Made by a program: the position numbers and the translations under genes. From a virus, in IMG/VR virus record IMGVR_UViG_3300006929_003912, positions 1 to 25,171 of that record: a stretch of 25,171 nt of DNA; one strand, written 5' to 3'. The number at the start of each line of letters is the position of its first letter. Positions within the stretch are counted from its first letter, which is position 1. The notes below the pieces were generated by a model. It was given only the letters and a program-made list of their open reading frames with translations, had not been told where the DNA came from and ran no database searches. This document shows, piece by piece, positions 2,913 through 25,171 of the stretch.

Positions 2913-3719
2913 ATGAAATCTATGATTAAAGAAGAAATAACTCGAATTAAAAACTTAATGACAATCTCAGAGGAATTAGAGATGGGGCCATATATGGACT
3001 CAACATATTTAAAAACCCCAGAACAAGCAGGAATTGATGAATATGAAACTGAACTAATAGTTTTTGATACAATTAAAGATGCGATTGAACATAATATGAA
3101 ATTAGTTATGATAAGACCTGAATACGTGCAATCAGCTAGAACATTAATAGATGATAAAGGAGCAAATCTTTTGGTTGGTACAGTTATAGGGTTTCCACAT
3201 GGTGATAATAGTCATGGTGAAAAAATGGATGAGGCCTTAAAAGCTATACAAGACGGTGTGGATGAATTAGATTTTGTGGTGAATTATAAAGCCTTTAAAA
3301 AAGGTGATTTAGATACAGTTAAAAAAGAAGTTAGTGAAGGTACAGTTATTGGTATAAGTGAAGGAAAATCAGTAAAATGGATTATAGAATCTGCAGCTTT
3401 AACAAGTGAAGAAATAGCTGAACTAACAAAGTTAATTAGTGAAATAGTTATACAAACGGTTGGAGTTGAAAAAGCGAGTAATGTTTTTGTTAAGACCTCA
3501 ACAGGGTTTTTTAAACCCGAGGACGGTAGTTCTGGTGGAGCCACGGTAGACGCGGTCTCTATAATGTCACAAAATGCAGGACCTCTAAAGGTTAAAGCTT
3601 CTGGTGGTATTTATAGTAAAGATGATGTTTTAGCCATGGTTAAAGCGGGAGCTTCTAGAATTGGTACTTCTGCCGCAAAAGAAATAATGTTAGGACAAGA
3701 AACAAATAAAGATTATTAA
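2913..3719 (+). CDS. deoC: Deoxyribose-phosphate aldolase with N-terminal tag-like extension
   Basis: This is a 268-residue class I aldolase of the DeoC family, which splits 2-deoxyribose 5-phosphate into glyceraldehyde 3-phosphate and acetaldehyde. The Schiff-base lysine lies in VKTSTGF (K194), the second active-site lysine in VKASGG (K228), and the acidic partner is probably D120 in DELDFVVNY. The usual N-terminal D-H-T-x-L-K appears as MDSTYLK at residues 28-34, with Ser in place of His. About 25 residues precede it that normal DeoC proteins lack (MKSMIKEEITRIKNLMTISE); they are Lys/Glu-rich, helix-prone and contain IKE and ISE, matching the T4 prohead-protease pattern I/L-x-E. The stop overlaps the next start as TAATG, so the two genes are translationally coupled. 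Both act, by fold, on deoxyribose compounds. Confidence 0.88.
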   Translation: MKSMIKEEITRIKNLMTISEELEMGPYMDSTYLKTPEQAGIDEYETELIVFDTIKDAIEHNMKLVMIRPEYVQSARTLIDDKGANLLVGTVIGFPHGDNSHGEKMDEALKAIQDGVDELDFVVNYKAFKKGDLDTVKKEVSEGTVIGISEGKSVKWIIESAALTSEEIAELTKLISEIVIQTVGVEKASNVFVKTSTGFFKPEDGSSGGATVDAVSIMSQNAGPLKVKASGGIYSKDDVLAMVKAGASRIGTSAAKEIMLGQETNKDY

Positions 3720-4609
3720 TGAAAAATTTAATTAAAAAAATATTAAGAGAAGAGGTCACTAATGATATTATGACATTTCAAGATGAAATATTTGACCTTC
3801 CGCTAACCCAAAGAAAAGCAGTAGCTAGAGGATTAGAAACATTATTAATTTCTAAAAATAACGAAGAAGAATTAATTGAGCAAATCAATTATAAGGGCAT
3901 TCCTGAATTAAAAGCAACCGGTACTCTAGGTAAAATATTTAAATGGTTTAAGAGATATATTACGGATAAAGCGACAAACTTCCTAATTAACGCTTCAATG
4001 AATGAAATAAAAGATACCATTCAAATGTTAAAAGTGTTAGACCCAACAGATATGGCGGGAATATTTAAACCTAAAGCTATGTATTTGGGTGGGGGGATTG
4101 ATTTTGCTGAAGATGGTGCTTCCTGGAGAACTAGAGTAGAAGAATTTTACGGTGCAGACCATGTAGTTAAAGATGAGAGATTGTACACATTAGTTACCAC
4201 GGGTAAATTAAATTTTAGTGGTTTAAAAACCCCAGCACTACTAAACCCATTAAGAGCGGAAACGGTAAGAGCGGAAGACCCGGAATTCGGTGAAATGTTT
4301 GCAAAATGGAAAAACAACGAATTAACACAAGATGATATGGTTATATTCCAGGAAAAAATTAGAGAACAAATTGTCCACCAAGACTTATATATGTTACAAG
4401 TATGTGACACTAACTTAATTAGTTTTGATGGAACAGCAGGAGCAGGAACTTTTGGTGAAGCTCAGATATCAGCTTTAAAAAATCAACAAGTTTTTGTATG
4501 GTTAAATAAAGGAATGAAAATGTCAAACATTTCTCCTTGGTTATTTCCATCTATAACTAAAATTATAAAGGATGACGAACTTTGGCCATTCTTAGAAAAA
4601 CTTGGTTAG
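3719..4609 (+). CDS. Nucleoside 2-deoxyribosyltransferase-fold protein with N-terminal extension
   Basis: This 296-residue protein has two parts. Residues 1-115 are helix-prone and begin MKNLIKKILREEV, a short basic amphipathic segment ending in LRE-E, a T4-type prohead-protease pattern. Residues 119-285 resemble the nucleoside 2-deoxyribosyltransferase fold: a first strand with MYLGGGID followed by WR (136-137), then DLYMLQVCD (222-230), LISFDG (233-238) and AGAGTFGEA (240-248). Glu247 is the likely counterpart of the catalytic Glu in the family's G-T-x-x-E motif. Family members exchange or hydrolyse the base of deoxynucleosides. The assignment is by motif spacing alone and a homology search could change it. 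It shares a TAATG junction with the aldolase gene upstream and converges with the SprT-like gene, overlapping it by four bases. Confidence 0.6.
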   Translation: MKNLIKKILREEVTNDIMTFQDEIFDLPLTQRKAVARGLETLLISKNNEEELIEQINYKGIPELKATGTLGKIFKWFKRYITDKATNFLINASMNEIKDTIQMLKVLDPTDMAGIFKPKAMYLGGGIDFAEDGASWRTRVEEFYGADHVVKDERLYTLVTTGKLNFSGLKTPALLNPLRAETVRAEDPEFGEMFAKWKNNELTQDDMVIFQEKIREQIVHQDLYMLQVCDTNLISFDGTAGAGTFGEAQISALKNQQVFVWLNKGMKMSNISPWLFPSITKIIKDDELWPFLEKLG

Positions 4610-5106
4610 TATACTTTAACCACTTTACGATTTAAATCCCACGTAAAATTATACTCTGCAGTATACTGGTTATTGTTATATTTTTTACAACATTTACCAC
4701 ACGCTAATTGTTTTTTACTTTTTCTAGCATAATAAACTTCTCTTTCACATCTAGGGCAGGTAGCAATCCATTTCATTACATTAGATTTATCAACACCACT
4801 ATTACTAGTACATCTTTCACCACTACAACCTATAGATATCGCAATTCTTTTCCAAGTATCATCGTGATTTGAATAGCCTCTTTTTTTATAATCTAATGCG
4901 TGTGCTATTTCATGTAGGATAGTGTTTTTTACTCGGGATTCATTTATTTCGTGTTGGGTTAAAGGTCTAGAGAGTGATATCGTTTTAAGTCTACCATTAT
5001 GACAACCAAATCTACGAACTGCTCTATCCCATTTAAAGGTATAGTCAGATACCCCATGTTTCCTCATTAGTTTGAGAGCTGTATTTCTAGCTTTTTCTAA
5101 ATTCAT
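4606..5106 (-). CDS. SprT-like zinc metalloprotease
   Basis: This 166-residue protein carries the zincin motif HEIAH at 65-69 with a third histidine ligand at H81 (YSNHDDTW), the layout of SprT and the SPRTN protease domain. It is followed by a zinc ribbon: CPRC at 117-120 and CGKC at 136-139. SprT-domain proteins cut DNA-bound or crosslinked proteins in eukaryotes; their phage role is not established. Start choice is supported by the promoter directly upstream and by the 14 bases TTTGTAGTATGAAT that it shares with the peptidase gene start. The gene follows the ClpC-like gene on the same strand with a 51-bp gap but appears to have its own promoter. It is complete and has no signal peptide. 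Confidence 0.88.
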   Translation of the reverse strand: MNLEKARNTALKLMRKHGVSDYTFKWDRAVRRFGCHNGRLKTISLSRPLTQHEINESRVKNTILHEIAHALDYKKRGYSNHDDTWKRIAISIGCSGERCTSNSGVDKSNVMKWIATCPRCEREVYYARKSKKQLACGKCCKKYNNNQYTAEYNFTWDLNRKVVKVY

Positions 5107-5157: not shown

Positions 5158-7188
5158 TTAACGAGTACTAGGTTTAATTTTTACCTTCTCAGTTTTTTTG
5201 TTGTAACTAAGGGTATACTTACCTCCTTCTTTAACGGAACCTTTAAGTATTTCTTCTGAAATATAATCCTCTATTTCAGATTGTATAGCACGTTTAAGAG
5301 GTCTTGCTCCGAACTGTTTATTATAACCTATCTCAGCAATAAAACTTACCACACTAGGACCAAAATTAAAATCATACTCTTTCTCAATCAATCTAGACTT
5401 TAAATTTTTTAATTCTAATTTAACAATCTTATTTATATTTTCACCTTCTAAATGACTAAAATTAACAATATCATCCAACCTATTTAAAAATTCTGGATTA
5501 AAAGTGTTCTTAAGAGCTTTTGAGATTAGTGACCTCGCGTGTTCATCACCAGCTTGTTTTCGAGCTTTGGTAGCGAAACCAATACCGTCACCAAAATCCT
5601 GAACAGATTTTATACCAATATTAGAAGTCATTATAATTAAAGTGTTTTTAAAATTAATTTTTCTCCCAGAAGCATCCGTAACATGACCATCATCTAATAT
5701 TTGTAATAACATATTAAAAATATCTTTATGTGCTTTTTCTATCTCATCAAACAATACTAAAGAGTAAGGGTTGTTTCTTACTTTTTCAGTTAGTTGACCA
5801 CCCTCATTATATCCTACATAACCCGGAGGTGAACCTATTAATCTAGACATAGAGTGTTTTTCTTGAAACTCTGACATGTCTACTCTAATAATAGAATCCT
5901 CAGTACCAAAAACCTCTTCAGATAATTTTTTAGCTAAATAAGTCTTACCAACACCAGTAGGGCCTAAAAATATGAAAGAACCAATAGGTTTATTACCATC
6001 TTTAATACCAACTGAATTTCGTCTAATTGCTTTACAGATTTTTTCTATAGCTTCATCTTGGCCGATGACGACATCTTGAAGTTTAGACTCCAAACCTAAA
6101 AGTTCCATTTTTTGATTAGCGTCTAAACGAGAAAGAGGTATTTTAGTTATTTCAGATATTACTTCAAATATATCGTCCACAGTAATAAGAGTTCTATTTT
6201 TTTCTTGCTGTTCTTCAAACTGAGTTTTTAATAAAGATAATTTTTCTATAAGTTTTTTTTCATTGTCTCTGATTTCTGCAGCTTTTTCATAGTTTTGAGA
6301 TTGTACCACTTCCATCTTATCCTTTTTAATTTGGGATATTTTCTTTTTTAAAGTTTCTATTGATTTAGGGTATGTTGTGTCTATTTGTGCCTTAGCCCCC
6401 ACCTCGTCTAAAATATCAATAGCTTTATCTGGAAACTCCCTATCAGTAATATATCTCTGTGCTAAATTAACACAGAATTGAAGAGCTTCTTCGTTATAAT
6501 ATACTTTATGATGGTCTTCGTACTTATCCTTAATATTTTTTAATATCTCAAAAGTCTGAGAAGGTGTTGTTGGTGAAACCATCACTTTTTGAAATCTTCT
6601 TTCTAATGCACCATCCTTTTCTATCTTTTCTCTATATTCATTTAAAGTGGTAGCTCCTATACATTGAACTTCACCTCTTGATAAAGCGGGTTTAAAAATA
6701 TTAGCAGCATCCAAGTTTCCTGAAGAATTACCAGTACCTACAACAGTGTGAACTTCATCAATAAAAATAATAATATCTTTATTATCTCTTAATTCATCTA
6801 AGATAGCCTTCATCCTTTCCTCGAATTGGCCTCTGTATTTTGTACCAGCTACTAGAGACGTTAACTCCAAAGATACTATTCTTTTATCTAATAAATTACG
6901 CGGACACTTACCAGCGTGAATAATAATTGCTAGACCTTCTACAATCGCTGTCTTACCACACCCAGGTTCCCCTATAAGAATTGGGTTATTTTTTTTACGT
7001 CTAGATAAAGTTTGTGCAATTCTTTTTATTTCTCTTTCTCTCCCTATGACCGGGTCTAACTCATTTAAACTAGCTAGTAAAGTTAAATCACGTGAAAAAT
7101 TATCTAATATAGGTGTAGTTGAAGAAGGAGTATCATTATCTCTACTTCTCCTAGGTTCATTTTTTGGTATTTCGTCAAATTCAGCCAT
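5158..7188 (-). CDS. clpC: ClpC-type double AAA+ unfoldase lacking the N-domain
   Basis: This 676-residue protein has two AAA+ modules. Module one has Walker A GEPGCGKT (73-80) and Walker B IIIFIDE (139-145). Module two has Walker A GPTGVGKT (409-416), LVLFDE (477-482) and sensor 2 GAR (627-629). The short middle region (about 280-330) has a UVR-like stretch, [10 protein letters not shown], as in ClpC, not the long coiled coil of ClpB, so a disaggregase identity is unlikely. In module two GIGF (535-538) stands where ClpA, ClpC and ClpX carry the IGF/LGF loop that docks on ClpP. The double Clp N-domain of cellular ClpC, which binds adaptors, is absent; only about 25 low-complexity residues precede the first module. 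It therefore probably feeds proteins into a ClpP supplied by the host or by the phage outside this window. A long regulated leader precedes it. Confidence 0.9.
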
Positions 7189-7344: not shown

Positions 7345-7524
7345 ATGGAACATATAAATAAAAAAATAAAAAATTTTGAACTATTCAAAGAGATAGATAA
7401 CTTTTTTAAGGGTATATGTGATGAAACAAAAAAAACTGACCACTTGATTAATAACTCTATTTCACATAAATTTATAAATAATAAAATTAAAAGAAAAAAA
7501 AATGGCAAAAGTAATTGGAATTGA
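7345..7524 (+). CDS. Possible small protein upstream of dnaK
   Basis: An ATG after an A-rich leader opens a 59-codon frame that ends inside dnaK in another frame, overlapping it by 23 bp. The product is Lys/Asn-rich, starts [17 protein letters not shown], has one Cys and no membrane segment. It has no J-domain HPD, so it is not a DnaJ fragment. Its favour: start context like its neighbours, and coupling to dnaK. Against it: AT-rich DNA makes such frames common, and its C-terminal part reads through the dnaK start region. I do not recognise it. Confidence 0.35.
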
Positions 7525-9370
7525 TTTAGGGACTACAAATTCATGTGTCTCTGTAGTAGAGGGGGGAGACCCATCTATAATTGTTAACGGGGAAGGTAGA
7601 AGAACAACCCCATCAGTAGTTTCGTTTAAAGAAGGTAATAGGGTAGTTGGTGAACCAGCTAAAAGACAAGCAGTCTCTAACCCTACAAACACTATATATT
7701 CGGTAAAAAGATTTATCGGTAGTAAATTTACAGAAGTAAGTAAAGAAGCTAAAAAAATGCCTTACCAGGTTAAAAAAGGAAAAAATAATACTGTAAATAT
7801 TCTTATTGAAGATAAAGCGTATATCCCACAAGAAATTTCTGCAGTTGTTTTACAAAATCTTAAAAAAACAGCAGAAGACTACCTAGGGGGTAAAGTGACT
7901 GATGCGGTTATTACCGTTCCAGCCTATTTTAATGATGAGCAAAGAAAAGCTACAAAAGAAGCTGGAGAGATTGCCGGGTTAAATGTTCTTAGAGTTATTA
8001 ACGAACCTACAGCTGCAGCATTAGCATATGGTATAGATGAAAAACAAGAAAAAACAATTGCTGTTTATGATTTAGGTGGTGGTACCTTCGATATCTCTAT
8101 ATTGGAAATTTCTGATGGTGTATTTGAAGTTAAGTCTACAAACGGAGATACTCACTTAGGTGGTGATAATTTTGATGAAAAAATTGTAGACTGGTTACTA
8201 GAAGAGTTTAAAGGAGAAAACGGAATGGACCTGAACCAAGACCCTGCAGCTTTACAAAGACTTAGAGAAGCGGCTGAAAAAGCAAAAGTAGAACTATCAT
8301 CCACAAGTACAACAGAAATTAATTTACCTTATATTACAGCAGATAGTACCGGACCAAAACACCTTGTTAAACCTTTATCTAAAAATTTCTTTGAGTCTAT
8401 GATTGAAGATTTAGTAAAAAGAACATTAACTCCTTGTAAAAAAGCATTAAAAGACGCTAATTTAAAAACTAGTGATATCGATGAAATTATTTTAGTAGGT
8501 GGTTCTACAAGAATTCCAGCAGTACAACAAGCTGTTGAGAAGTTCTTTAATAAAAAACCTTCTAAAGGGGTAAACCCAGATGAGGTAGTTGCGATGGGTG
8601 CAGCAATCCAAGGAGGGGTATTAGTAGGTGATGTAAAAGACGTACTACTTCTAGATGTTACACCACTTTCTTTAGGTATTGAAACTATGGGAGGTGTAAT
8701 GACTAAACTTATAGAGTCCAACACTACAATTCCCACGAGTAAATCAGAGGTATTCTCCACAGCAAGTAATAACCAACCAGCGGTAGACATCCATGTAGTA
8801 CAAGGTGAAAGACCGATGGCAACAGACAATAGAACATTAGGAAGATTTCAACTAACTGATATACCACCAGCTCCCAGGGGTATACCACAAATTGAAGTAA
8901 CTTTTGATATCGATGCTAATGGTATTATTAATGTGACTGCGAAAGATAAAGGAACTGGAAGGGTTCAAAATATTAAAATTGAATCTGGAAGTTCCTTATC
9001 TGACGAAGAAATACAACGTATGAAAACAGAAGCAGAACAAAATGCAAGTGAAGATGCCGCTAAAAAAGAAAAAGTAGAAAAACTTAATACAGCAGACGCT
9101 ACCATATTCCAAACAGAAAAACAAATAAAAGAGTTTGGTGATAAATTAGAAGATGTTGATAAGTCTAGATTGGAGAACAATATAAAGGAACTCAAAGAAG
9201 TTATAAAAGAGGAAGATATAGAAGGTGTTGATGAATTAACAGATAAATTAAATAGTACATGGCAAGAAATCAGTACGAAGTTATACCAACAAACTGAACA
9301 AACCGAAAATCCACAAGAATCTCCTAAAGAAGAAGACGCGACGGATGTAGAATATGAAGAAGTAAAATAA
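7502..9370 (+). CDS. dnaK: Hsp70 chaperone DnaK, full length
   Basis: This 622-residue protein is a complete bacterial-type Hsp70. The nucleotide-binding domain opens [10 protein letters not shown] (6-15), has the catalytic lysine region YSVKRF (K69) and phosphate loop [10 protein letters not shown] with T195, the counterpart of E. coli T199. The interdomain linker [12 protein letters not shown] lies near 380-392, followed by the peptide-binding domain and helical lid. The C-terminus [11 protein letters not shown] keeps the acidic EEV-type tail of cellular DnaK. It uses ATP to bind and release unfolded chains and normally needs DnaJ and GrpE, neither of which is in this window, so host co-chaperones may serve. 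No break or missing motif is seen. The start follows an A-run, without a Shine-Dalgarno sequence. It sits divergent to a Clp unfoldase and ends at a strong terminator, so it is probably a single-gene unit. Acquisition from a host is likely. Confidence 0.97.
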
Positions 9371-9428: not shown

Positions 9429-9674
9429 ATGGCAATTAAATCTGAAAAAATAAGTGGTAAATTAATATTAAATGAATACGAATCCACCAATCTCAAATCA
9501 TCTGAATATAATACTGAAACCAGAGAATTAATCGTAGAATTTAAAAAAGGTGGGAAATATTCTTACGCTAAAGTACCTATTAGTGTTTTTACAAAAATGA
9601 GAAAAGCGGACAGTCAAGGTTCATTCTTTTCAAAAAACATATCTAAGACCTACAAATATAAAAAATTAACATAA
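9429..9674 (+). CDS. KTSC-domain small protein
   Basis: This 81-residue protein matches the KTSC domain, a short beta-rich module named for its occurrence at the C-terminus of some lysyl-tRNA synthetases. The match covers the pattern I see at residues 18-76: EST-x-L-x-S-x-x-Y, then LIVEFKKGGKYSYAKVP (34-50), then ADSQGSFFSKNI (60-71) and a final Tyr. The domain is common as a stand-alone protein in tailed phages; its function is unknown. It follows the dnaK terminator and is the first gene of the plus-strand block that runs to the capsid gene. Confidence 0.8.
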   Translation: MAIKSEKISGKLILNEYESTNLKSSEYNTETRELIVEFKKGGKYSYAKVPISVFTKMRKADSQGSFFSKNISKTYKYKKLT

Positions 9675-12207: not shown

Positions 12208-12611
12208 TGAATCTAATCTATATCAATGAGTTAGGACCTAATTTTAGAGGTGAAAATATGTATGAATTTATATTTTCATCCAACACCGAAGAGTTATGGG
12301 GTGAGGATTGGGATGCTGTTCCAGCTTATGGTAAACCATCTCCACCTGATATGGAGTATATTAGTGTTGTAGGGACTCTAGCTAAAAGTAAAATAAAGTT
12401 AATCCTAGTACAGAATTCTGAATATTTTGGAATGGAACACGCGATGGATAACGTTATTTGTTTGGGTTGGGAAAGTTTTGATGAAGACCATAACACCGAT
12501 AAAGAAAGATTAGTTTTTCATTTTGGTGAAACTAAAAAAGAAATTGAGGATAAATTATACTCACGAGATTTAATTTTAGATTACGATAAAACTTTATCTT
12601 ATGTTAAGTAG
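12207..12611 (+). CDS. Unrecognised small acidic protein
   Basis: This 134-residue protein has a start that overlaps the preceding stop (TAATG) and a tail that overlaps the next gene by 11 bp, so it belongs to a tight translational cluster. It is acidic and Trp/Tyr-containing, with GEDWDAVPAYGKPSPPDMEY near residues 33-52 and ICLGWESFDEDH further on. No signal peptide, membrane segment or metal motif is seen. It is not recognisably a small terminase subunit. I recall similar proteins in other T4-like phages but know no function. Confidence 0.78.
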   Translation: MNLIYINELGPNFRGENMYEFIFSSNTEELWGEDWDAVPAYGKPSPPDMEYISVVGTLAKSKIKLILVQNSEYFGMEHAMDNVICLGWESFDEDHNTDKERLVFHFGETKKEIEDKLYSRDLILDYDKTLSYVK

Positions 12612-13911
12612 AAATAAAATAATAGAAAAATTAGTAAATGAAGGGTTTACCTATAAAACCCTTTCTTTATTTAATGACCGCCAAATTAAAGAGCTTGCGT
12701 CTCGTATTCTTAGAGAGGCTAGTACCAGTAGAGTAGAAAAAACAACCTATACTAAATCAGAAGTTGATAAAATGAAACAGGACCACGGTGGTTTATCTGT
12801 AGATGGTACTGTTACACCTAATGAAGATGGTTCGGTAACTGTAACCCAGGAACTTGGTGAAGATAATATTGATGACGATAAAGAGTTTGAAAAAACACAT
12901 CCTAAAACTAAAAAAATAGATACCGAAGCTGGTGAAATGGATTTAGTTCTAGGTGAGATGGATTTGGACGACAGACACCCCAACCGTAAGGGTAGTGGTA
13001 ATGGGAAATCTAAAACTGACGGAGGAACTTTTGAACCTGTAAATTACGACGTTACCAAACCCAAATCACATGATGAACTAAGTAGAAAAAAAGAATTAAC
13101 ACATACTGGTGAAGATTATATCTATGAAGAATTTAAATCTAAAGACCAACAACAATACTTTTTTGCTAAGTGTGATGAGGAAGGACCAAAAAGTAAGTGG
13201 TGTAAAATGGCAAAAGAATTTGCGGATGACACCAAAGACTTCTCCAAGTTACCAGAAAAAGTTCAAAATGAAATGGTAGAAGAGTGGGTAACTAGTTTAG
13301 TAGAAAGAGAAGATAAAACAATTAAAGTTAGTAAAGGTAAGTTAATGGAGATGGTTCGTCAAAATTACAAACTTAACTATGATACAGGTAAAATAAAAAG
13401 AATGGAAAAAACCATGGATTTATTCGATTCTATGGAACAAGAAGTTGCCTTTGACCAGTTAAATAGATGGACTCTACAAAAAAACGGATTTCAACTAAAT
13501 GTAGATGAACTAGAAAAGGGGGAAGATAGTGAGGAGTCTGTTTTATTATTATACTTAAATTCAGATAGTGGTGATGTTTGGGACATTAAAATTTATACTG
13601 ATGGTAATATCTATATGGATGATGCACCAATTAATGATATACAAGATTTTGAGGAAGAAATAAAAGAAAAAGAATCAAAGAGTGAAGGTGAATTAGCTGA
13701 AACTGAAAGAGATACTGAAGGTGCGTATATGGGAGCTCCAGTTAAAGAACCAACTATAAAACCTACTACAACACCTACACCTACTAAAAAACCAGGTAGA
13801 CCCGGACCATTTAAAAGACCACAAACAACACCTAAACCTAAAGCACAAGACAAAAAAGTTCCTGATTGGTTTAACTTTGATAAAATTAAATCACAAGTAG
13901 AAAAAAAATAG
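12601..13911 (+). CDS. Unrecognised modular protein with DUF3008-like segment
   Basis: This 436-residue protein begins with a helical segment ending RILREA (35-40), a T4-type cleavage pattern (L-R-E before Ala). Residues 177-225 (KSKDQQQYFFAKCDEEG then MAKEFADD and LPEKVQ) resemble the phage DUF3008 pattern S-K-x-Q-Q-R ... M-A-x-S-M ... G-L-P-E-K-V, though the usual Arg after QQ is Gln. A Pro/Thr/Lys-rich linker (about 381-425) precedes the last 15 residues. Between genes of probable head proteins and next to the terminase block, a virion or core role is possible. The start overlaps the preceding gene by 11 bp. Confidence 0.78.
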   Translation: MLSRNKIIEKLVNEGFTYKTLSLFNDRQIKELASRILREASTSRVEKTTYTKSEVDKMKQDHGGLSVDGTVTPNEDGSVTVTQELGEDNIDDDKEFEKTHPKTKKIDTEAGEMDLVLGEMDLDDRHPNRKGSGNGKSKTDGGTFEPVNYDVTKPKSHDELSRKKELTHTGEDYIYEEFKSKDQQQYFFAKCDEEGPKSKWCKMAKEFADDTKDFSKLPEKVQNEMVEEWVTSLVEREDKTIKVSKGKLMEMVRQNYKLNYDTGKIKRMEKTMDLFDSMEQEVAFDQLNRWTLQKNGFQLNVDELEKGEDSEESVLLLYLNSDSGDVWDIKIYTDGNIYMDDAPINDIQDFEEEIKEKESKSEGELAETERDTEGAYMGAPVKEPTIKPTTTPTPTKKPGRPGPFKRPQTTPKPKAQDKKVPDWFNFDKIKSQVEKK

Positions 13912-13914
13912 AAA

Positions 13915-15285
13915 ATGGCTAATAAAAGAAAAAAGTTACATGAAGCCCCTCCTATCGATTATTCTGATGGACCAGAAAGAATGTCACCAGATATCGAAAG
14001 AAAATTAAGAAGTCAAGAGCACCCTTTAGGTGGACATCCAGCTTTCCCGGATGTTAATGGAGACGGTATTCCAGATAATTTTGAAGAGTTATTAGCATCT
14101 AAAAGATTTAGAGATGTTGTAGAAAAAGTAAAACAATCTACAGGTCTAGAAACTATAGACCCAAGGTCAGTAATGTCAATGCAACCCATGTTCCAAAGAG
14201 CTTTAATGAGAATAATGCAAATAGAAAGTCAAAATAAAAAGGCTTTAGAGGAGTTAGCTGTTGAGGTGGTTAAAAAAGAAATGGGAATTCCAGAAGGAGA
14301 CCTTCAGTTTGATGCTAAATTAGAAAAACCTAGTTTAGAAGGAATGCAAAGACAACCAGAAAAACCAAAGAAAAAACAACAAGAATTTAAAAATCCAGAA
14401 GAAGAACAAGAAGCAGCAAAAAGATTAGAAAAGTTTAATCTAGAAAGACAAAAAAGAAGATTCATCAACTCTATTATCCAAGGTTCTTCTAAAAAAGCTT
14501 TATATCTATATCATTTAGTGAATGAGAAATTAGACGAAATAAATCCAGAATTAGTAAATCTTTATTCTTTAGTTATGTCAGTTAATGATTTAATGTACTG
14601 GATAATGCCTGATATGGATATGAGAATGGCAGCTGGAGGTGGTGAAGAATTAGGTGGTGGTAGAGAAGAGTTAGATTTAGAAACAGACCCACCTACTATT
14701 AAAGCTGAAGGGGCACTATTCCCAATATTAGTTCATGAACTATATAAAGGTGTTATGGAATATGTATCCGCTCACGGATTACCATCAGACCCATCTACAG
14801 CTGAAGATGTTATAGGTATGGAAGATACTTTACCTGCTGAAGTTTGGGATTTAAGATTAGGCCCTGTAATATGGGAAAAATTTAGAGATTCTTACCCACA
14901 AGAGTTATTTGACTCACAAGATAGAAAAAGATTACAAAATTATTTTTATTATAGGTTTGTAAGTTTACCAGCAGAAGAATTTTTATCTTTAGCAAAAGAA
15001 ATATTATCTGGTAGTGATAGAGGTAAAGATTTAGTTAAAAAAATGGTAGATGAGATTATCCAAGAACTAAAAAATGAGGATTACGAAGAAGCTACAGGTA
15101 TAGACCAAAAAGATGATGATGATTTTGCCACAACAACCCTTAGTAGTATTGACGCACCCGAAGAACCTAGTACACCATCAGCAGAAGATTTTGATTTAGA
15201 TACACTTTTGGATAAAATTTCTAAAAGGGGTATGGAGTCTCTTACACCCGAAGAATTAACATTTCTGAAAAGTTTCGGAAATTAA
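13915..15285 (+). CDS. Unrecognised protein with an EF-hand calcium loop
   Basis: This 456-residue protein begins 4 bp after the previous stop. Residues 46-57 (DVNGDGIPDNFE) form a textbook 12-residue EF-hand loop, with acidic or amide ligands at loop positions 1, 3, 5 and 9 and Glu at 12; single loops of this kind also occur in dockerin-like calcium-binding repeats. The middle is a charged helical stretch (about 120-185, Lys/Glu/Gln-rich, probably coiled coil). The second half is mostly helical with conserved-looking aromatic residues and an acidic tail. Its position just before the terminase gene is suggestive of a head-assembly role, not proof. No signal peptide is seen. Confidence 0.78.
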   Translation: MANKRKKLHEAPPIDYSDGPERMSPDIERKLRSQEHPLGGHPAFPDVNGDGIPDNFEELLASKRFRDVVEKVKQSTGLETIDPRSVMSMQPMFQRALMRIMQIESQNKKALEELAVEVVKKEMGIPEGDLQFDAKLEKPSLEGMQRQPEKPKKKQQEFKNPEEEQEAAKRLEKFNLERQKRRFINSIIQGSSKKALYLYHLVNEKLDEINPELVNLYSLVMSVNDLMYWIMPDMDMRMAAGGGEELGGGREELDLETDPPTIKAEGALFPILVHELYKGVMEYVSAHGLPSDPSTAEDVIGMEDTLPAEVWDLRLGPVIWEKFRDSYPQELFDSQDRKRLQNYFYYRFVSLPAEEFLSLAKEILSGSDRGKDLVKKMVDEIIQELKNEDYEEATGIDQKDDDDFATTTLSSIDAPEEPSTPSAEDFDLDTLLDKISKRGMESLTPEELTFLKSFGN

Positions 15286-17124: not shown

Positions 17125-18963
17125 ATGGCAGAAAAATTAACAGTATTCCAAAGATTGGGTAAACTATTTGGTCCAGAAGGACCAAGAGTTGCACAACCAA
17201 CATACAAAGAATTTCAATTCACTAGTAAAGATTTGCTTAAAACCAAATCAAAAACTGAATTCGAAAAAGAAAAATTACAAGCACAACAAACTCTTTATTT
17301 AGCAAAACAATGGCACAAAATAGATAACGAGTTATATACACAATCTATTTATTACGAACCAACTAGATTGGCTTCTTATTATGATTATGAGTCAATGGAG
17401 TTTACTCCTGAAATTTCCGCAGCTTTAGATATCTACGCTGAAGAATCTACTACACCATCAGAAGATGGATATATGTTAACCATTTATTCCGAATCTGTAA
17501 GAATAAAATCTATTTTAGCTGATTTATTTAATAACATTCTTGATGTTAATACAAATTTACCTATGTGGATAAGAAATACGTGTAAGTATGGGGATGATTT
17601 TGTTTATTTAAAAATAGACCCAGAAAAAGGTATTATAGGTTGTAATCAGTTACCTAATATTGAAATAGAAAGAATTGAGTCTGGTAATTATCCTGCTACA
17701 CAAGTAGATACAAGTGCTGAGAAAAAAGAAAGAAAACTTAAGTTTATTTGGAAAGATAAGTCAATGGAGTTTCAATCGTGGGAAATGGCTCACTTTAGAT
17801 TGTTAGGTGATGATAGAAGATTGCCTTATGGAACTTCAATGTTAGAAAAAGCTCGTAGAACTTGGAAACAACTTTTACTAGCTGAAGACGCTATGTTAGT
17901 CTATAGAACTTCTAGAGCTCCTGAGAGAAGAGTATTTAAAGTTTTTGTTGGTAATATGGACGATAAAGATGTAGAAGCTTACATCCAAAGAGTTTCTAAT
18001 AAATTTAAAAGGGACCCAGTCGTAGACCCGAGTAATGGGAATGTGGATTTAAGATATAATCAGATGGCCGTTGACCAAGACTTTTTTATTCCAGTTAGAG
18101 ACCCAGCGTCACCTAATCCTATAGAAACATTACCAGGAGCTACTAATCTAAGTGAAATTGCGGATATTGAATATATACAAAAAAAGTTATTAGCTGCTCT
18201 TAGAATTCCAAAAGCCTTTTTAGGGTTCGAGGAAGTTGTTGGAGAAGGGAAAAATTTAGCTCTACTAGATATTAGATTTGCAAGAACTATAAACAGAATT
18301 CAAAAATCGATTATTCAAGAACTTAATAAAATAGCTATTATACATCTTTATATTTTAGGTTTTGATGAAGAACTAGACAATTTTGCATTAGGACTTACAA
18401 ACCCATCTACACAAGCGGACCTACTTAAATTGGAAAATTGGGCAAGCAAGATTACACTATTTAAAGATGCTGTTGCTGACCCAGGTACGGGAATCTCACC
18501 AGTATCAAGCACATGGGCTAAAAAACATATATTAGGTATGTCAGATGAGGAAATTAAATTAGATTTACAACAACAAAGATTTGAAAAAGCTATCGCTAAA
18601 GAATTAGAAACTACTGGTGATATAATTAAGAAAACCGGGGTATTTAATCAGATAGATAAGTTATATGGTGATATTGAAAAGACTGAAGAAGCGGGTGGAG
18701 ATATGGCTGGTGAAGGTGGAGATGAATTTGCTACTGGAGCAGAAGGATTAGCGGGTGGTGAAGAAATTGAAACTGGTGATGAAACCTTAGGTGGAGATGA
18801 AGGACTTGAACCAGCAGCTGAAAGTTTTAAAATAGAAAAAGATTTACCGTTAATCTTAGAAAATAAAGGTCTAGAACTACCGAATCTTGAAGAATTAGCT
18901 TCTAAATCAAGTAAAGAAATCAAAGACGTACAAGATAAAATAGATGATTTGTTAGATGAGTAA
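17125..18963 (+). CDS. 20: Portal protein (T4 gp20-like)
   Basis: This 612-residue protein forms the ring at the unique head vertex through which DNA passes and on which the prohead starts. T4-family signatures include EISAALDIYAEEST (95-108), LGDDRRLPYGTSMLEKARR (about 227-245), ETLPGATNLSEI (334-345) and ALRIPKAFLG (357-366). It is longer than T4 gp20 (524) because of a low-complexity Gly/Glu-rich tail after about residue 515 (repeated GDE, GGE), followed by a helical end with LILEN, a possible I/L-x-E site. The tail would lie inside the shell, where it could meet the core. It stands directly after the terminase gene; the tail sheath and tube genes that separate them in T4 are absent here. 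Confidence 0.96.
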   Translation: MAEKLTVFQRLGKLFGPEGPRVAQPTYKEFQFTSKDLLKTKSKTEFEKEKLQAQQTLYLAKQWHKIDNELYTQSIYYEPTRLASYYDYESMEFTPEISAALDIYAEESTTPSEDGYMLTIYSESVRIKSILADLFNNILDVNTNLPMWIRNTCKYGDDFVYLKIDPEKGIIGCNQLPNIEIERIESGNYPATQVDTSAEKKERKLKFIWKDKSMEFQSWEMAHFRLLGDDRRLPYGTSMLEKARRTWKQLLLAEDAMLVYRTSRAPERRVFKVFVGNMDDKDVEAYIQRVSNKFKRDPVVDPSNGNVDLRYNQMAVDQDFFIPVRDPASPNPIETLPGATNLSEIADIEYIQKKLLAALRIPKAFLGFEEVVGEGKNLALLDIRFARTINRIQKSIIQELNKIAIIHLYILGFDEELDNFALGLTNPSTQADLLKLENWASKITLFKDAVADPGTGISPVSSTWAKKHILGMSDEEIKLDLQQQRFEKAIAKELETTGDIIKKTGVFNQIDKLYGDIEKTEEAGGDMAGEGGDEFATGAEGLAGGEEIETGDETLGGDEGLEPAAESFKIEKDLPLILENKGLELPNLEELASKSSKEIKDVQDKIDDLLDE

Positions 18964-18983: not shown

Positions 18984-19727
18984 ATGAAATTTTTTGGTAA
19001 ATATAAAAAAGCGATAGACACTATTTTAGCTGAATCTTACTCAGATAAAAAGTTATTTAAAGAAAATTTCCATATAGTAATGGGCGCGATGAAGTTCTCT
19101 AAAGACTTTAGGGAGTTTTTTACTTTGTATAATGAGATGGAACAAAAAACTATTACTGAACAAAATGATGCTAGAGAATATATTAATGAATCTATAGATT
19201 TGTTGAGGTCTAAAGTTTCTAACTTAAAAAAAACCTTACCTATTTTTGATAGTATTATCACAAGAAAGTTAAAAAATAAAAAATTAAAAAGTAATCCGAT
19301 ATACGAAAGTTTAGATTATTTAATTTTTAAAAGTGGTGTAAAGTCTATTGAAAAAAGAGTATCGAGTAAAAAAACACTTTTAGAGTCATTACAAAGAGAA
19401 CAAAAAGGTGTAAAATTAAACAGGGGTTATTCTACGAAAATATTGTCTAAAACTTTAAGTAAAAATTTTAATGAAGAATTTAAAAATCTTACAGAGAGTG
19501 AAAAAATATTATTTAATAATATTATTTCTTTAGATGAAAAAAACATTAATTTAGAGTTTAATAAAACTAAAAATAAACTAGTAGAAAATATCAACACTTT
19601 AATTAGTGAAACCAAAGAAGACCAACTTGTAACTAGACTAGTGGAAACTAAAAATTCTATTTTAACTATGAATGTTAATAGAAAAAATCTTTTATCTATA
19701 AAACAACTATCCCAGGATTTGAAATAG
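18984..19727 (+). CDS. Putative prohead core protein, helical (position of T4 gp67/gp68)
   Basis: This 247-residue protein is Lys/Glu/Leu/Asn-rich and looks almost wholly helical, with heptad-like stretches at about 55-90 and 150-220. Sequence does not identify it. The case for a core protein is its place between portal and prohead protease, where T4 encodes core proteins gp67 and gp68, and an early DTILAES (12-18) with L-A-E before Ser, a T4 prohead-protease pattern. It has no Cys and no Trp. An unrelated structural role is possible. Confidence 0.7.
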   Translation: MKFFGKYKKAIDTILAESYSDKKLFKENFHIVMGAMKFSKDFREFFTLYNEMEQKTITEQNDAREYINESIDLLRSKVSNLKKTLPIFDSIITRKLKNKKLKSNPIYESLDYLIFKSGVKSIEKRVSSKKTLLESLQREQKGVKLNRGYSTKILSKTLSKNFNEEFKNLTESEKILFNNIISLDEKNINLEFNKTKNKLVENINTLISETKEDQLVTRLVETKNSILTMNVNRKNLLSIKQLSQDLK

Positions 19728-21151: not shown

Positions 21152-21853
21152 ATGAAAATTTTAAAAGCTAACGAACTTGGTCACGGAATATTAATAGAAT
21201 ATGACGCGGGAAACATATCTCCTAAACAAAATAGTAAAATAATTAGAGAAATGACTGACCCTTCTTTTGATGGGGAAGTTGAGATGTATTGTATTTTGCA
21301 AAAATATGGTACACCTAATAGAAACGGGAGAGTATACCCTAAAGAAATACTAGAACGTGAAAATCAAAGATACCAAGACGTAATTAAAAGAGGTAGCTCT
21401 ATCTCAGAATTAAACCACCCTGAATCTTCACTTATAGATTTAGAAAGAACATCCCATATTATTACCGAAACTTTTTGGGATGATAATAGGTTAATGGGAA
21501 AACTAAAACTTTTAACTTCACCTGGTTACCATAAAGACGGGGTAGTATCAACAGTCGGTGATATTGCTGCGAATCTTTTAAGACAAGGTGTTACATTAGG
21601 GATTAGTTCAAGGGGTGTTGGTTCACTTAAAAAAAGTGGGGAATTTAATGAGGTACAAGAAGATTTTGAATTGATTTGTTTTGACTTAGTTTCTTCACCA
21701 TCTACTCCTGGTTCTTACTTATTTAAGGATATGAAAGATATGGAAAAGTATGACGAAGTTCTAGAAAATACAAATCCAGGTAAAGACAATTCCGGTGGTT
21801 TTGACAAATCATTAGCTCTGATGTCAAAACTTAATAATTTCTTAAATAAATAA
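21152..21853 (+). CDS. 21: Prohead maturation protease (T4 gp21-like)
   Basis: This 233-residue serine protease belongs to the herpesvirus-assemblin-like fold used by T4 gp21. The probable catalytic residues are His89 in SELNHPESS and a Ser in LGISSRGVGS (S152 or S153), with D178 in LICFDLVSSPSTPG also conserved-looking. Its length is close to T4 gp21 (212). In T4 it lies in the prohead core, is activated on assembly, and cleaves after I/L-x-E in scaffold, core and capsid proteins. Candidate targets visible here are the capsid protein, the scaffold, the core-like protein and perhaps tagged enzymes. Scaffold and capsid genes follow directly. Confidence 0.94.
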   Translation: MKILKANELGHGILIEYDAGNISPKQNSKIIREMTDPSFDGEVEMYCILQKYGTPNRNGRVYPKEILERENQRYQDVIKRGSSISELNHPESSLIDLERTSHIITETFWDDNRLMGKLKLLTSPGYHKDGVVSTVGDIAANLLRQGVTLGISSRGVGSLKKSGEFNEVQEDFELICFDLVSSPSTPGSYLFKDMKDMEKYDEVLENTNPGKDNSGGFDKSLALMSKLNNFLNK

Positions 21854-21944: not shown

Positions 21945-23441
21945 ATGAGTAAGTCTACATTAGAAAAAGCGTTGCTCGAGGCGGAACAGTTGGAAGAAAC
22001 TATGAAGTCTAATGCAAAAGAAATACTTTCTTCAACTATGAAGGAAGAAATTCATGATTTAGTAAAAGAATCGTTAACTGAGGAAGACGATTACCTTAAA
22101 GAGCGAGAGGACGAAGAACAAGAAGTTGATGTCGAAATGGATATGGAATCTGACGATATGTCAGACGAATTAGATTTAGGCGATGAACTTGATATTGAGG
22201 ACGAGACCGAGGATGATATATCTTTGGAGCTGCCACCTCTAGACCTAACCTCAGCATCTGACGAAGAAGTCATAAAAGTCTTTAAATCTATGGGTGATGA
22301 AGATGGAATTGTTATTCAACAGGATGACAATGAAATTTCATTAACTGATGGTGATGAAGAGTATTTAATTAAATTAGAAGAAAACAAAAAAATGAAAAAA
22401 AATTCTAAAAACAAAATTAATGAAATGGAGGACATGGAAGACACTGATATGAAATCTATGGATGAGATGGAGGATGACATGATGGAAACTGAAGACATGG
22501 ATGAGATGAAACACTCTGACATGATGGAAGACGAAGATGTTGTTTATGAAATCGAATTAGATGAAGAAGATGAGGAGGAAATGTCAGAAATGGAAGACGA
22601 AGAAATGTCGGAAATGGAAGACGAAATGAAAGAAGGTAAGTACGGAGGTAATAAAGGAGAACTTAGACGTAGTGCTAAGCGCGACTATACCGAAGGTAAG
22701 TACGGAGGTAATAAAGGAGATTTTAGACGTAGTGCTAAAAAAGACTATACCGAAGGTACGTATGGTGGTAACGAAGGAGACATCCGAAGAAGTGCTAAGA
22801 GAGATTACACTGAAAGAGCAAAGTATGGCGGAAATATGGGAGATTTTAGACGTAGTGCTAAAAAAGACTATACGGAAGGTAAATACGGAGGTAATAAAGG
22901 TGATTTCAGAAGAAGTGCTAAAAAAGATTACACAGAAGGAAGACAAAACAGTTTGACTCAAAAAGCTAGAGCAGGTCAGAGAAGTAATTCTTACAACCAA
23001 GCAGCTAGAGCTCATTCAGGAATCCATCTGCCGGAATCTTATAATCGTCTCAAAAAAGAAGTAACTGGTTTAAAAAGTAAGAATTCAGAATACAAAAAAG
23101 CATTAGTATCATTTAAACAAAAATTAAATGAAACAGCTGTATTTAATTCTAACTTAGCATATGCTACAAGACTATTTACTGAACATTCTACTACTAAACA
23201 AGAAAAAATTAACATTCTAAGAAGGTTTGATAATGTAAAATCTTTAAAGGAATCGAAAAGCTTGTATAAAGTAATTAGAGAATCTCTTGCTGGCAACACA
23301 ACAAAGAAAAATATTTCTGAGTCTGTTGAAAGAAAGATTGCTAAAACCCCTAGTAGTGGTGCGAATACAAAATTGATGGAATCAAAAGTGTATGAAAACC
23401 CACAATTTTCTAGGATTAAGGACTTAATGTCTAAATTATAA
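21945..23441 (+). CDS. 22: Prohead scaffold protein (T4 gp22-like) with tandem basic repeats
   Basis: Assignment rests mainly on position between protease and capsid genes and on composition, as scaffolds diverge fast. The 498 residues fall into a helical N-terminus with ALLEAEQLEE, a long acidic region (about 45-230, runs of Glu, Asp and Met), five tandem repeats of about 20 residues (231-331), and a basic helical C-terminus ending IKDLMSKL, the end expected to contact the capsid shell. T4 gp22 has only 269 residues and no such repeats. Several I/L-x-E sites lie in the C-terminal part (LNE-T, LKE-S, ISE-S, LME-S), consistent with destruction by gp21 during maturation. It forms the core on which the capsid protein assembles. 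Confidence 0.88.
   Translation: MSKSTLEKALLEAEQLEETMKSNAKEILSSTMKEEIHDLVKESLTEEDDYLKEREDEEQEVDVEMDMESDDMSDELDLGDELDIEDETEDDISLELPPLDLTSASDEEVIKVFKSMGDEDGIVIQQDDNEISLTDGDEEYLIKLEENKKMKKNSKNKINEMEDMEDTDMKSMDEMEDDMMETEDMDEMKHSDMMEDEDVVYEIELDEEDEEEMSEMEDEEMSEMEDEMKEGKYGGNKGELRRSAKRDYTEGKYGGNKGDFRRSAKKDYTEGTYGGNEGDIRRSAKRDYTERAKYGGNMGDFRRSAKKDYTEGKYGGNKGDFRRSAKKDYTEGRQNSLTQKARAGQRSNSYNQAARAHSGIHLPESYNRLKKEVTGLKSKNSEYKKALVSFKQKLNETAVFNSNLAYATRLFTEHSTTKQEKINILRRFDNVKSLKESKSLYKVIRESLAGNTTKKNISESVERKIAKTPSSGANTKLMESKVYENPQFSRIKDLMSKL
22635..22937 (+). repeat. Five tandem 60-bp repeats inside the scaffold gene
   Basis: Units lie at 22635-22694, 22695-22754, 22755-22814, 22815-22877 (one extra codon) and 22878-22937. 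Each codes a version of YGGNKGDFRRSAKKDYTE and joins the next, mostly through Gly. The first two copies are nearly identical in DNA, others drift at third positions, which points to stepwise duplication with selection on the protein. Each unit is strongly basic against an acidic flank, and ends Y-T-E before Gly (or Arg). Confidence 0.93.
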
Positions 23442-23469: not shown

Positions 23470-25171
23470 ATGGGAGCATTATTAGAATCTGGTATGGTTG
23501 GTAACATAGGGTTAAAACACCTTAAAGTTATCAAAGAAGATACCATCAACAAATGGGACAAGCTTGGATTCCTAGATGGCCTTAACGGTCATGGAAGGGA
23601 AAACATTGCCCAGTTATACGAAAACCAAGCTACACACTTGATAAATGAGGCGACTTCGTCTGATTCATCAGGTTCATTCGAAACAGTTGTTTTCCCAATA
23701 ATTAGAAGAGTATTCTCTAAATTATTGGCAAACGATATCGTTTCTGTACAAGCTATGAACTTACCAATTGGTAAATTATTCTACTTTGTACCTAAAGTAT
23801 CGTCAAGATATAGTAACACAGCAGATAGTAACTATCAACACTTTCCTCCATTTGGAGCACCAGGAGCAGGTGCAGCACAAACACCTAGTTCACCTACTTC
23901 GGCAACTACAATTAACTTGTATGATAACTTCTACGTTGGTAACGCACCGTTAATGGCAAGTGAAGGTCTTTATGATATTTCAAAAGGAGCTTACTCAGCT
24001 GTAACAGCTATTCACCTACCAGTTATGAAGTGGGATAACGCAGCTAGAACTTTAAGTACTGCTGACTTTGGTGCTACACCAGATACGGAAGTATCATCAT
24101 TAACATCATCTACAGCTTGTTTAAAATCTACGATTATTGCAATCACAGGATTTACAAATGCAGGTGCTGGTAAAATGGTTGGACCAACTGGTAACGAAAT
24201 GAATACTGAAGATTTCTTATCTTCATTAGCTGTTTCTGTAACTGGTTCTACAACTTGTAAGTCAGGTACAACTAACTACGATGCAAGTGATTTATCTACA
24301 ACAACTAAAGGTGTACCATCTGATACAACTGGTAAGAACAATACTTTATTTAGAGTTGTAACTCAAAAATATGGTAAAGGTATTGCTAACGCAGGTGGAA
24401 CTCAAACTTCAACAACTTATCCAGGTGGTAAGTATGATAGTATTTGTGATGTAACAGGTACTGTTTACGTAGAGGTTGATTTATCATGTCCAGCATGTAT
24501 TAACTGTTCATCTGTAGATGGATATGTTTGTTCATACTTTGGTTCGAACGCATTTGCTATGGCAGCAACACCACAAGGTACGAATACACCATTCTACGCG
24601 ACTTGGAGAACTTACCAAGACCTAGAATTTGAAGACCAAATGGGAGAGGTTTCTTTCGATTTAGACTCAGTAACAGTTACTGTAACAGAAAGAAAACTAA
24701 GAGCTCAATGGTCACCAGAATTAGCACAAGACGTTTCTGCATTCCATAACATTGATGCTGAAGCTGAATTAACAGCTTTATTATCAGAGGAAGTTGCAGC
24801 TGAGATTGATAGAGAAATCTTGAGAGACTTAAGAACAGGTGCGGCTTGGGATTTGAGATGGGACTACAATGGATGGAAGAGATTCCAGGCAGGACAAGCT
24901 CCTTACACTCAAAAAGATTGGAACCAAACGTTAATTACTGCAATTAACCAAATTTCTGCTCAAATTCATAAATCTACATTAAGAGGTGGAGCTAACTGGA
25001 TTGTATGTTCTTCTGAAATTTCTGCTATCTTTGATGACTTGGAGTACTTCCACGTATCAAACGCAGCACCAGAACAAGACCAATACAATATGGGTATTGA
25101 AAAAGTTGGAACATTATCAGGAAGATTTACTGTATATAGAGACCCTTACTTCCCAGCTAACCAAGTGTTAA
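23470..25171 (+). CDS. 23: Major capsid protein (T4 gp23-like), 3' end outside window
   Basis: The frame is open from ATG at 23470 to the right edge (567 codons, no stop). The N-terminus follows the T4 gp23 plan: NKWDKLG (28-34), then ENIAQLYENQ (44-53), then HLINEATSS. The predicted maturation cut is after Glu60 (I-N-E before Ala), close to T4's cut after residue 65. Further family features are VQAMNLPIGKLFYF (about 91-104) and ERKLRAQWSPELAQD followed by DAEAELTALLSEEV in the HK97-fold core. It has an unusual cysteine cluster, C340-x2-C343-x2-C346-x7-C354, with C326 nearby. Asn, Phe and Tyr codons often end in C, unlike neighbouring genes, as expected for a very highly expressed protein. 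Start is after an A-rich leader without Shine-Dalgarno sequence. Confidence 0.96.
   Translation, partial: MGALLESGMVGNIGLKHLKVIKEDTINKWDKLGFLDGLNGHGRENIAQLYENQATHLINEATSSDSSGSFETVVFPIIRRVFSKLLANDIVSVQAMNLPIGKLFYFVPKVSSRYSNTADSNYQHFPPFGAPGAGAAQTPSSPTSATTINLYDNFYVGNAPLMASEGLYDISKGAYSAVTAIHLPVMKWDNAARTLSTADFGATPDTEVSSLTSSTACLKSTIIAITGFTNAGAGKMVGPTGNEMNTEDFLSSLAVSVTGSTTCKSGTTNYDASDLSTTTKGVPSDTTGKNNTLFRVVTQKYGKGIANAGGTQTSTTYPGGKYDSICDVTGTVYVEVDLSCPACINCSSVDGYVCSYFGSNAFAMAATPQGTNTPFYATWRTYQDLEFEDQMGEVSFDLDSVTVTVTERKLRAQWSPELAQDVSAFHNIDAEAELTALLSEEVAAEIDREILRDLRTGAAWDLRWDYNGWKRFQAGQAPYTQKDWNQTLITAINQISAQIHKSTLRGGANWIVCSSEISAIFDDLEYFHVSNAAPEQDQYNMGIEKVGTLSGRFTVYRDPYFPANQVL

Follow-up and report, generated by a model that had tools for sequence, protein, structure and literature searches.

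Introduction

Bacteriophage T4 packs only a handful of proteins into its head by way of short N-terminal tags, the capsid-targeting sequences (CTSs). The T4 prohead protease gp21 cleaves after L/I-x-E. To bring a protein into the T4 head, ten residues from the start of IPIII are enough; within the leader, residues 4 and 7 matter for targeting and residues 8 and 10 for processing, and fusions packaged via the capsid-targeting sequence are delivered (PMC9026906). No description of such tags outside T4 and the giant phages was found in the open literature searched.

It is against this background that we consider a virus record from IMG/VR (25,171 bases, the whole stretch analysed, here called the window), which derives from an uncultured, T4-like phage. 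Two enzymes encoded in it carry additional N-termini, and the best explanation of both, to which we assign a probability of about 0.8, is that they are CTSs like those of T4, with proteolytic release.

The head module and its surroundings

The T4-like head module of the window comprises a terminase, a portal protein, a gp21-type protease and a gp23-like capsid protein of which the first part is present. The features are as follows (in all peptides a slash marks the known or predicted cut, or the junction).

Within the window: terminase, phrog_2 match
17125..18963, + strand: portal protein (gp20-like), without a tag; phrog_213, E 3.5e-65
21152..21853, + strand: T4 gp21-type prohead protease; phrog_207 head maturation protease, E 9e-40
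21945..23441, + strand: protein in the scaffold (gp22) position, between the protease and capsid genes; acidic, helical and rich in repeats
23470..25171, + strand: major capsid protein (gp23-like), its 3' part lost at the contig end; homologues match PF07068

The N-terminus of the scaffold-position protein, ALLEAxxLE, is conserved, and from its position this protein is likely to be the core bound by the tags. Within it (22600-23000) a unit like YGGNKGDFRRSAKKDYTEGK occurs about five times, each copy closed by TE/G; these may be recurring protease sites or an array that binds cargo.

A Clp-type ATPase (5158-7188) and DnaK (7502-9370), both conserved in relatives, adjoin the head module. The tagged enzyme pair is flanked by a minus-strand SprT-like metallopeptidase (4606-5106) and an M42-type peptidase (2036-2851), which are conserved in two contigs, G003 and G001, the latter a 232-kb contig with a DeoC relative that was the source for tag discovery and profile training. 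The DnaK, Clp-like ATPase and M42 peptidase are conserved in relatives and have no I/L-x-E leader. The protein at 20-2047 matches the C-terminal part of a 1426-residue G001 protein and was probably cut by the contig edge.

Two enzymes with additional N-termini

The pair and its leaders are encoded as follows.

2913..3719, + strand: deoxyribose-phosphate aldolase (DeoC), tagged; PF01791, E 4e-7
2913..2972, + strand: MKSMIKEEITRIKNLMTISE, the class D tag of DeoC; cut predicted behind residue 20 (TISE)
3719..4609, + strand: nucleoside deoxyribosyltransferase-like enzyme, tagged; weak PF15891/PF05014 matches
3719..3751, + strand: MKNLIKKILRE, the class A tag of this enzyme; cut predicted behind residue 11 (ILRE)

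The assignment of DeoC is supported by a PF01791 score of 30.3 bits (cut-off 23.8), a match to a DeoC of known structure (PDB, E 6e-29) and the catalytic-lysine motifs VKTSTGF and VKASGG (K194, K228), which are invariant among orthologues. Since solved DeoC chains align only from residue 23 of the window protein, equivalent to residue 5 of 5dbu, its first ~20 residues are additional to the enzyme, in keeping with the original prediction that the leader is foreign to the normal family. In an alignment of five orthologues E20 is invariant and P3 is I or V. The leader scores 19.3 against the class D profile.

The second enzyme begins with MKNLIKKILREE. Among five of its orthologues E11 never changes and P3 is L or I, in contrast to a variable linker (residues 12-22); the motifs YLGGGIDFA and DGTAGAGTFGEAQ are invariant too. 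About 20 viral orthologues exist, and a search for a bacterial homologue found none. Its earlier label, deoxyribosyltransferase-like, is tentative: the profiles that point to it are PF15891 and PF05014, at non-significant E values of 0.043 and 0.16. An AlphaFold model built from five sequences (pLDDT 38) was too poor for a structure search. The proposal that both enzymes carry extra I/L-x-E N-termini was borne out at 2913-2972 and from 3719.

Further candidate substrates lie among the neighbouring genes.

13915..15285, + strand: head-operon protein with the short N-terminus MANKRKKLHE/APPIDY; probably cut
12601..13911, + strand: head-operon protein (DUF3008-like), RILRE/A, a plausible processing site
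9429..9674, + strand: KTSC-domain protein, ILNE/Y just before the domain, which runs from residue 18; weaker candidate
18984..19727, + strand: core-like protein, DTILAES; rejected as a cut site

The junction of the first reads LHE/A, LYE/A, LRE/A and LNE/G in the window, G001, G003 and G006. In the DUF3008-like protein, named in the original prediction, the Glu is kept in relatives (KLLSE/R in G003, KLFNE/V in G001). The KTSC site becomes IITE/Y and TLKE/S in G001 and G003 and is absent in G009 and G006. The site proposed for the core-like protein is not conserved, being DSILINS in G001 and DSILESC in G003.

Recurrence of the tags across genomes

In the ORF list of G001 the same few N-termini stand on many unrelated proteins, and four tags recur: class A (MKNLIKKILREE), class B (KIxLTExELxxLIExVxKE), class C (LSExEKNRIRGLH) and class D (EExNRIKxLMG). 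When the first 26 residues of the proteins were compared without supervision (partner score >=40), 44 N-termini of G001 had a high-scoring non-homologous partner against 2-4 random internal segments, some recurrent N-termini of G001 and of Flavobacterium phage immuto being other things such as signal peptides and Rossmann starts. The corresponding figures were 13 against 0 in G003 and 3 against 0 in G004; a looser similarity threshold (28) for common N-termini was uninformative.

A wider search for the pattern, suggested at the outset, found it throughout the 232-kb relative, on ~30 of 244 proteins (an in-sample count). Out of sample, the profiles trained there matched 25/405 proteins in G009 (318 kb, overlapped by G012), 13/85 in G006 (64 kb) and 14/65 in G003, with few matches among internal segments. 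On eight control phages they gave 1/265 in T4 and 0-1 each in RM378, Mel-JY01, LR756501, phi38:1, phiST, crAss001 and phi14:2; RM378 and Mel-JY01 are T4-like and have the protease, and no tags were recognisable in them with these profiles, a point against capsid targeting. Where a tag peptide recurs, its coding DNA always differs. Variation is highest at third codon positions, and the tags are under selection at the protein level.

A search for cultured phages with these exact tags found none; the cultured phage immuto has its own variants (MENFDLKKFLVENKLTxNSKLLKE, MKKQILSEQFKRMQFLAGIITES and MKKSQLRxIIKEAL), for the most part on genes that directly precede those for terminase and portal. Related leaders, MKLTERKLRNLVKEVLKE and MKIQEQKLRGIIKEEIKKIVNE, also stand on many short proteins of a 484-kb huge phage (L039; LR756508.1, 120-169 kb), which has gp21 in the same record.

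Leaders exchanged on orthologous enzymes

Superoxide dismutase (SOD) orthologues carry three unrelated tags, and in all of them I/L-x-E directly precedes the SOD domain. One group has a class A leader (KKILRENLLTE/AKKTFFRR), a second a class B leader (MKIIITESQYNLILE/SKEDNFKR; ~73% match to the query over the body) and the SOD of two further phages a T4-like leader (MKIINFYDYLPINE/AKSSLFRR); in G001 the tag is directly followed by the Pfam domain, which begins at residue 25. A P-loop kinase has leaders of class A, class A plus B, or class D depending on the contig. This kinase, a separate tagged protein in relatives, is in G001 the C-terminal end of a 1787-residue frame (45839-51202). The junctions of a HAD-type protein read IISE, TLSE, PLNE, ILKE, LLVE or LLSE behind unrelated upstream sequence. 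VanY relatives in other contigs have N-termini of different architecture and were left out of the comparison. Judged from these alignments, the conserved element is the junction and not the leader itself. The exchange of tags among orthologues lends indirect support to the idea that a leader may by itself bring a foreign protein into the head.

On G019, a contig with the T4-like SOD leader, such leaders stand on ~20/96 proteins (20.8% vs 6.2% of internal segments, p 1e-5). Examples in this contig (L167-L171) include MIKNFHDYLNEA and MKNLKKFSDFINEA.

The predicted cut site, the capsid protein and the protease

Class C and D tags are followed by [LI]xE[QSAEGD] in 19/24 cases, as against 62-70/795 untagged N-termini (~8%; p about 2e-15 or less), the motif lying outside the region scored by these profiles and the count including several DeoC orthologues, so that it is not fully independent. 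The predicted maturation site of the window's capsid protein, LINE/A (23638-23649), aligns with the T4 gp23 cut site FLTE/A; at that position G001 has LINE, G006 LLNE, G009 LISE and immuto IVSE. As far as this alignment can tell, the specificity of the protease would fit the leaders.

Class A tags have hydrophobic residues at P7, P4 and P3 before the Glu, the register of MKTYQEFIAE in T4 IPII/IPIII (T4 record). Hydrophobics at P7 and P4 occur in 100% and 100% of class A and in 91% and 86% of class B, figures inflated in both by profile selection; the P7 register is not kept in class D, the class of the DeoC tag. Only 12/46 class A tags have a second strict site within 22 residues, and predicted cleavage there therefore depends on ILxE alone.

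Co-occurrence was followed in 16 contigs >40 kb, chosen only for the class B tag. Thirteen of the 16 have gp21, as do all ten of those with gp23, and the three without gp21 also have no gp23. In contigs reached by other routes gp21 is present wherever the region upstream of gp23 is covered; gp23 lies at the contig end in G019 and G020, and in G012 just a short piece resembling gp23 is present. The original prediction had named the same N-termini without a prohead protease as the contrary case, and all tag-bearing contigs that cover the head region turned out to have gp21.

The tagged proteins with a recognisable domain include an Fe/Mn superoxide dismutase, an M23 peptidase plus transglycosylase, a VanY carboxypeptidase, DeoC, a PAP2 phosphatase, a WYL protein, a zeta-like kinase and a DHH protein. 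Tagged VanY and M23/SLT proteins could be lysis enzymes instead of head cargo.

A proposed route into the head, and its alternatives

The capsid-targeting reading draws on the recurrence and N-terminal position of the tags, their conservation at the protein level including P3 and P1, the cut motif and its match in the capsid protein, the interchange of tags and their co-occurrence with protease and gp23; of the original prediction, its core-like example fell away. The tagged enzymes would be made late in infection with an amphipathic leader of 10-25 residues. The leader would bind the scaffold core, such that the enzyme is enclosed as the gp23 shell forms; the gp21-type protease would then cut after I/L-x-E, so that the leader departs and the mature enzyme is set free. 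This enzyme would stay in the head alongside the DNA and probably be ejected into the next host. Scaffold binding, cleavage and presence in the virion are what we infer, packaging into the head strongly so; injection into the host, argued by analogy with T4, is less certain. A literature search for virion proteomics of any tagged phage found none. On entry, DeoC and the transferase-like enzyme might perhaps, as a guess, strip the base from deoxynucleotides and degrade the sugar phosphate.

It could be argued that the tags serve only to bring proteins to the prohead for assembly, in structural or core roles, with no enzyme delivered to the host. Several head-operon proteins do share this kind of N-terminus; yet SOD, DeoC and the kinase are enzymes without an assembly role, and T4 fusions packaged in this way reach the host (PMC9026906), which makes this account unlikely, though it is the most serious competitor. 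Less probable still is that the tags are address labels for the inner membrane, the replication compartment or a phage nucleus, with I/L-x-E a by-product of amphipathic helices. Such an address would suit Lys-rich amphipathic helices and the tagged proteins that act on the cell wall or membrane (M23/SLT, VanY, PAP2), but swaps keep I/L-x-E at the junction and not the charge of the helix, one swapped tag is T4-like, the capsid maturation site has the same motif, and gp21 and gp23 accompany the tag-bearing contigs.

That the N-termini are ordinary extensions, artefacts of AT-rich composition or DNA-level signals near the start codon is very improbable. AT-rich codons do favour Lys, Ile and Asn, and some start codons were picked mechanically; against this, the tags are missing from internal segments and from other phages of Bacteroidetes hosts, synonymous sites vary most, and P3 and P1 are kept in orthologues while their neighbours vary.

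Capsid targeting of the T4 kind remains the preferred reading of the two leaders. Whether it extends to a large T4-like group, probably phages of Bacteroidetes, is to us an even bet: several tag families served by one core and protease would form a combinatorial capsid-cargo code, and dozens of enzymes (antioxidant, nucleotide-degrading, cell-wall, kinase) a toolkit injected at the start of infection. If true, the head contents of uncultured phages could be read from sequence, any tagged protein being predicted cargo, and many 'hypothetical proteins' and apparent metabolic genes would become candidate injected effectors. This would challenge the usual view that phage metabolic genes act only after expression, and would supply natural, short sequences with which enzymes could be loaded into phage capsids.

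Comparison with known systems

T4 already offers a system of this kind; what was not found described is so large, varied and interchangeable a set of tags, or their enzymatic cargo. Among giant phages (phiKZ, 201phi2-1 and SPN3US with its gp245 substrates), many head proteins, the ejection proteins, are likewise cut after Glu by a diverged gp21 homologue. However, most SPN3US propeptides exceed 100 residues, the phiKZ cut motif is S/A-x-E, and short tags common to unrelated enzymes are not described in the available portions of these reports (PMC5694885, PMC10052503). Polyvalent proteins (Iyer et al. 2017, PMC5512222) are similar in that packaging and early delivery are predicted for these effectors, but are large and multidomain, whereas here separate single enzymes each bear a removable tag.

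The closest parallel is with the T4 CTSs of IPI, IPII, IPIII and Alt, which are cut by gp21. Common to both are a short N-terminal leader ending in I/L-x-E, a gp21-type protease and a gp23 shell, together with the class A hydrophobics at P7, P4 and P3 and the T4-like leaders used by the relative G019. Unlike the handful of proteins in T4, up to ~12% of the proteome is tagged here; there are four or more further tag sequences, of which several can replace one another on a single enzyme, and metabolic and antioxidant enzymes are among the cargo.
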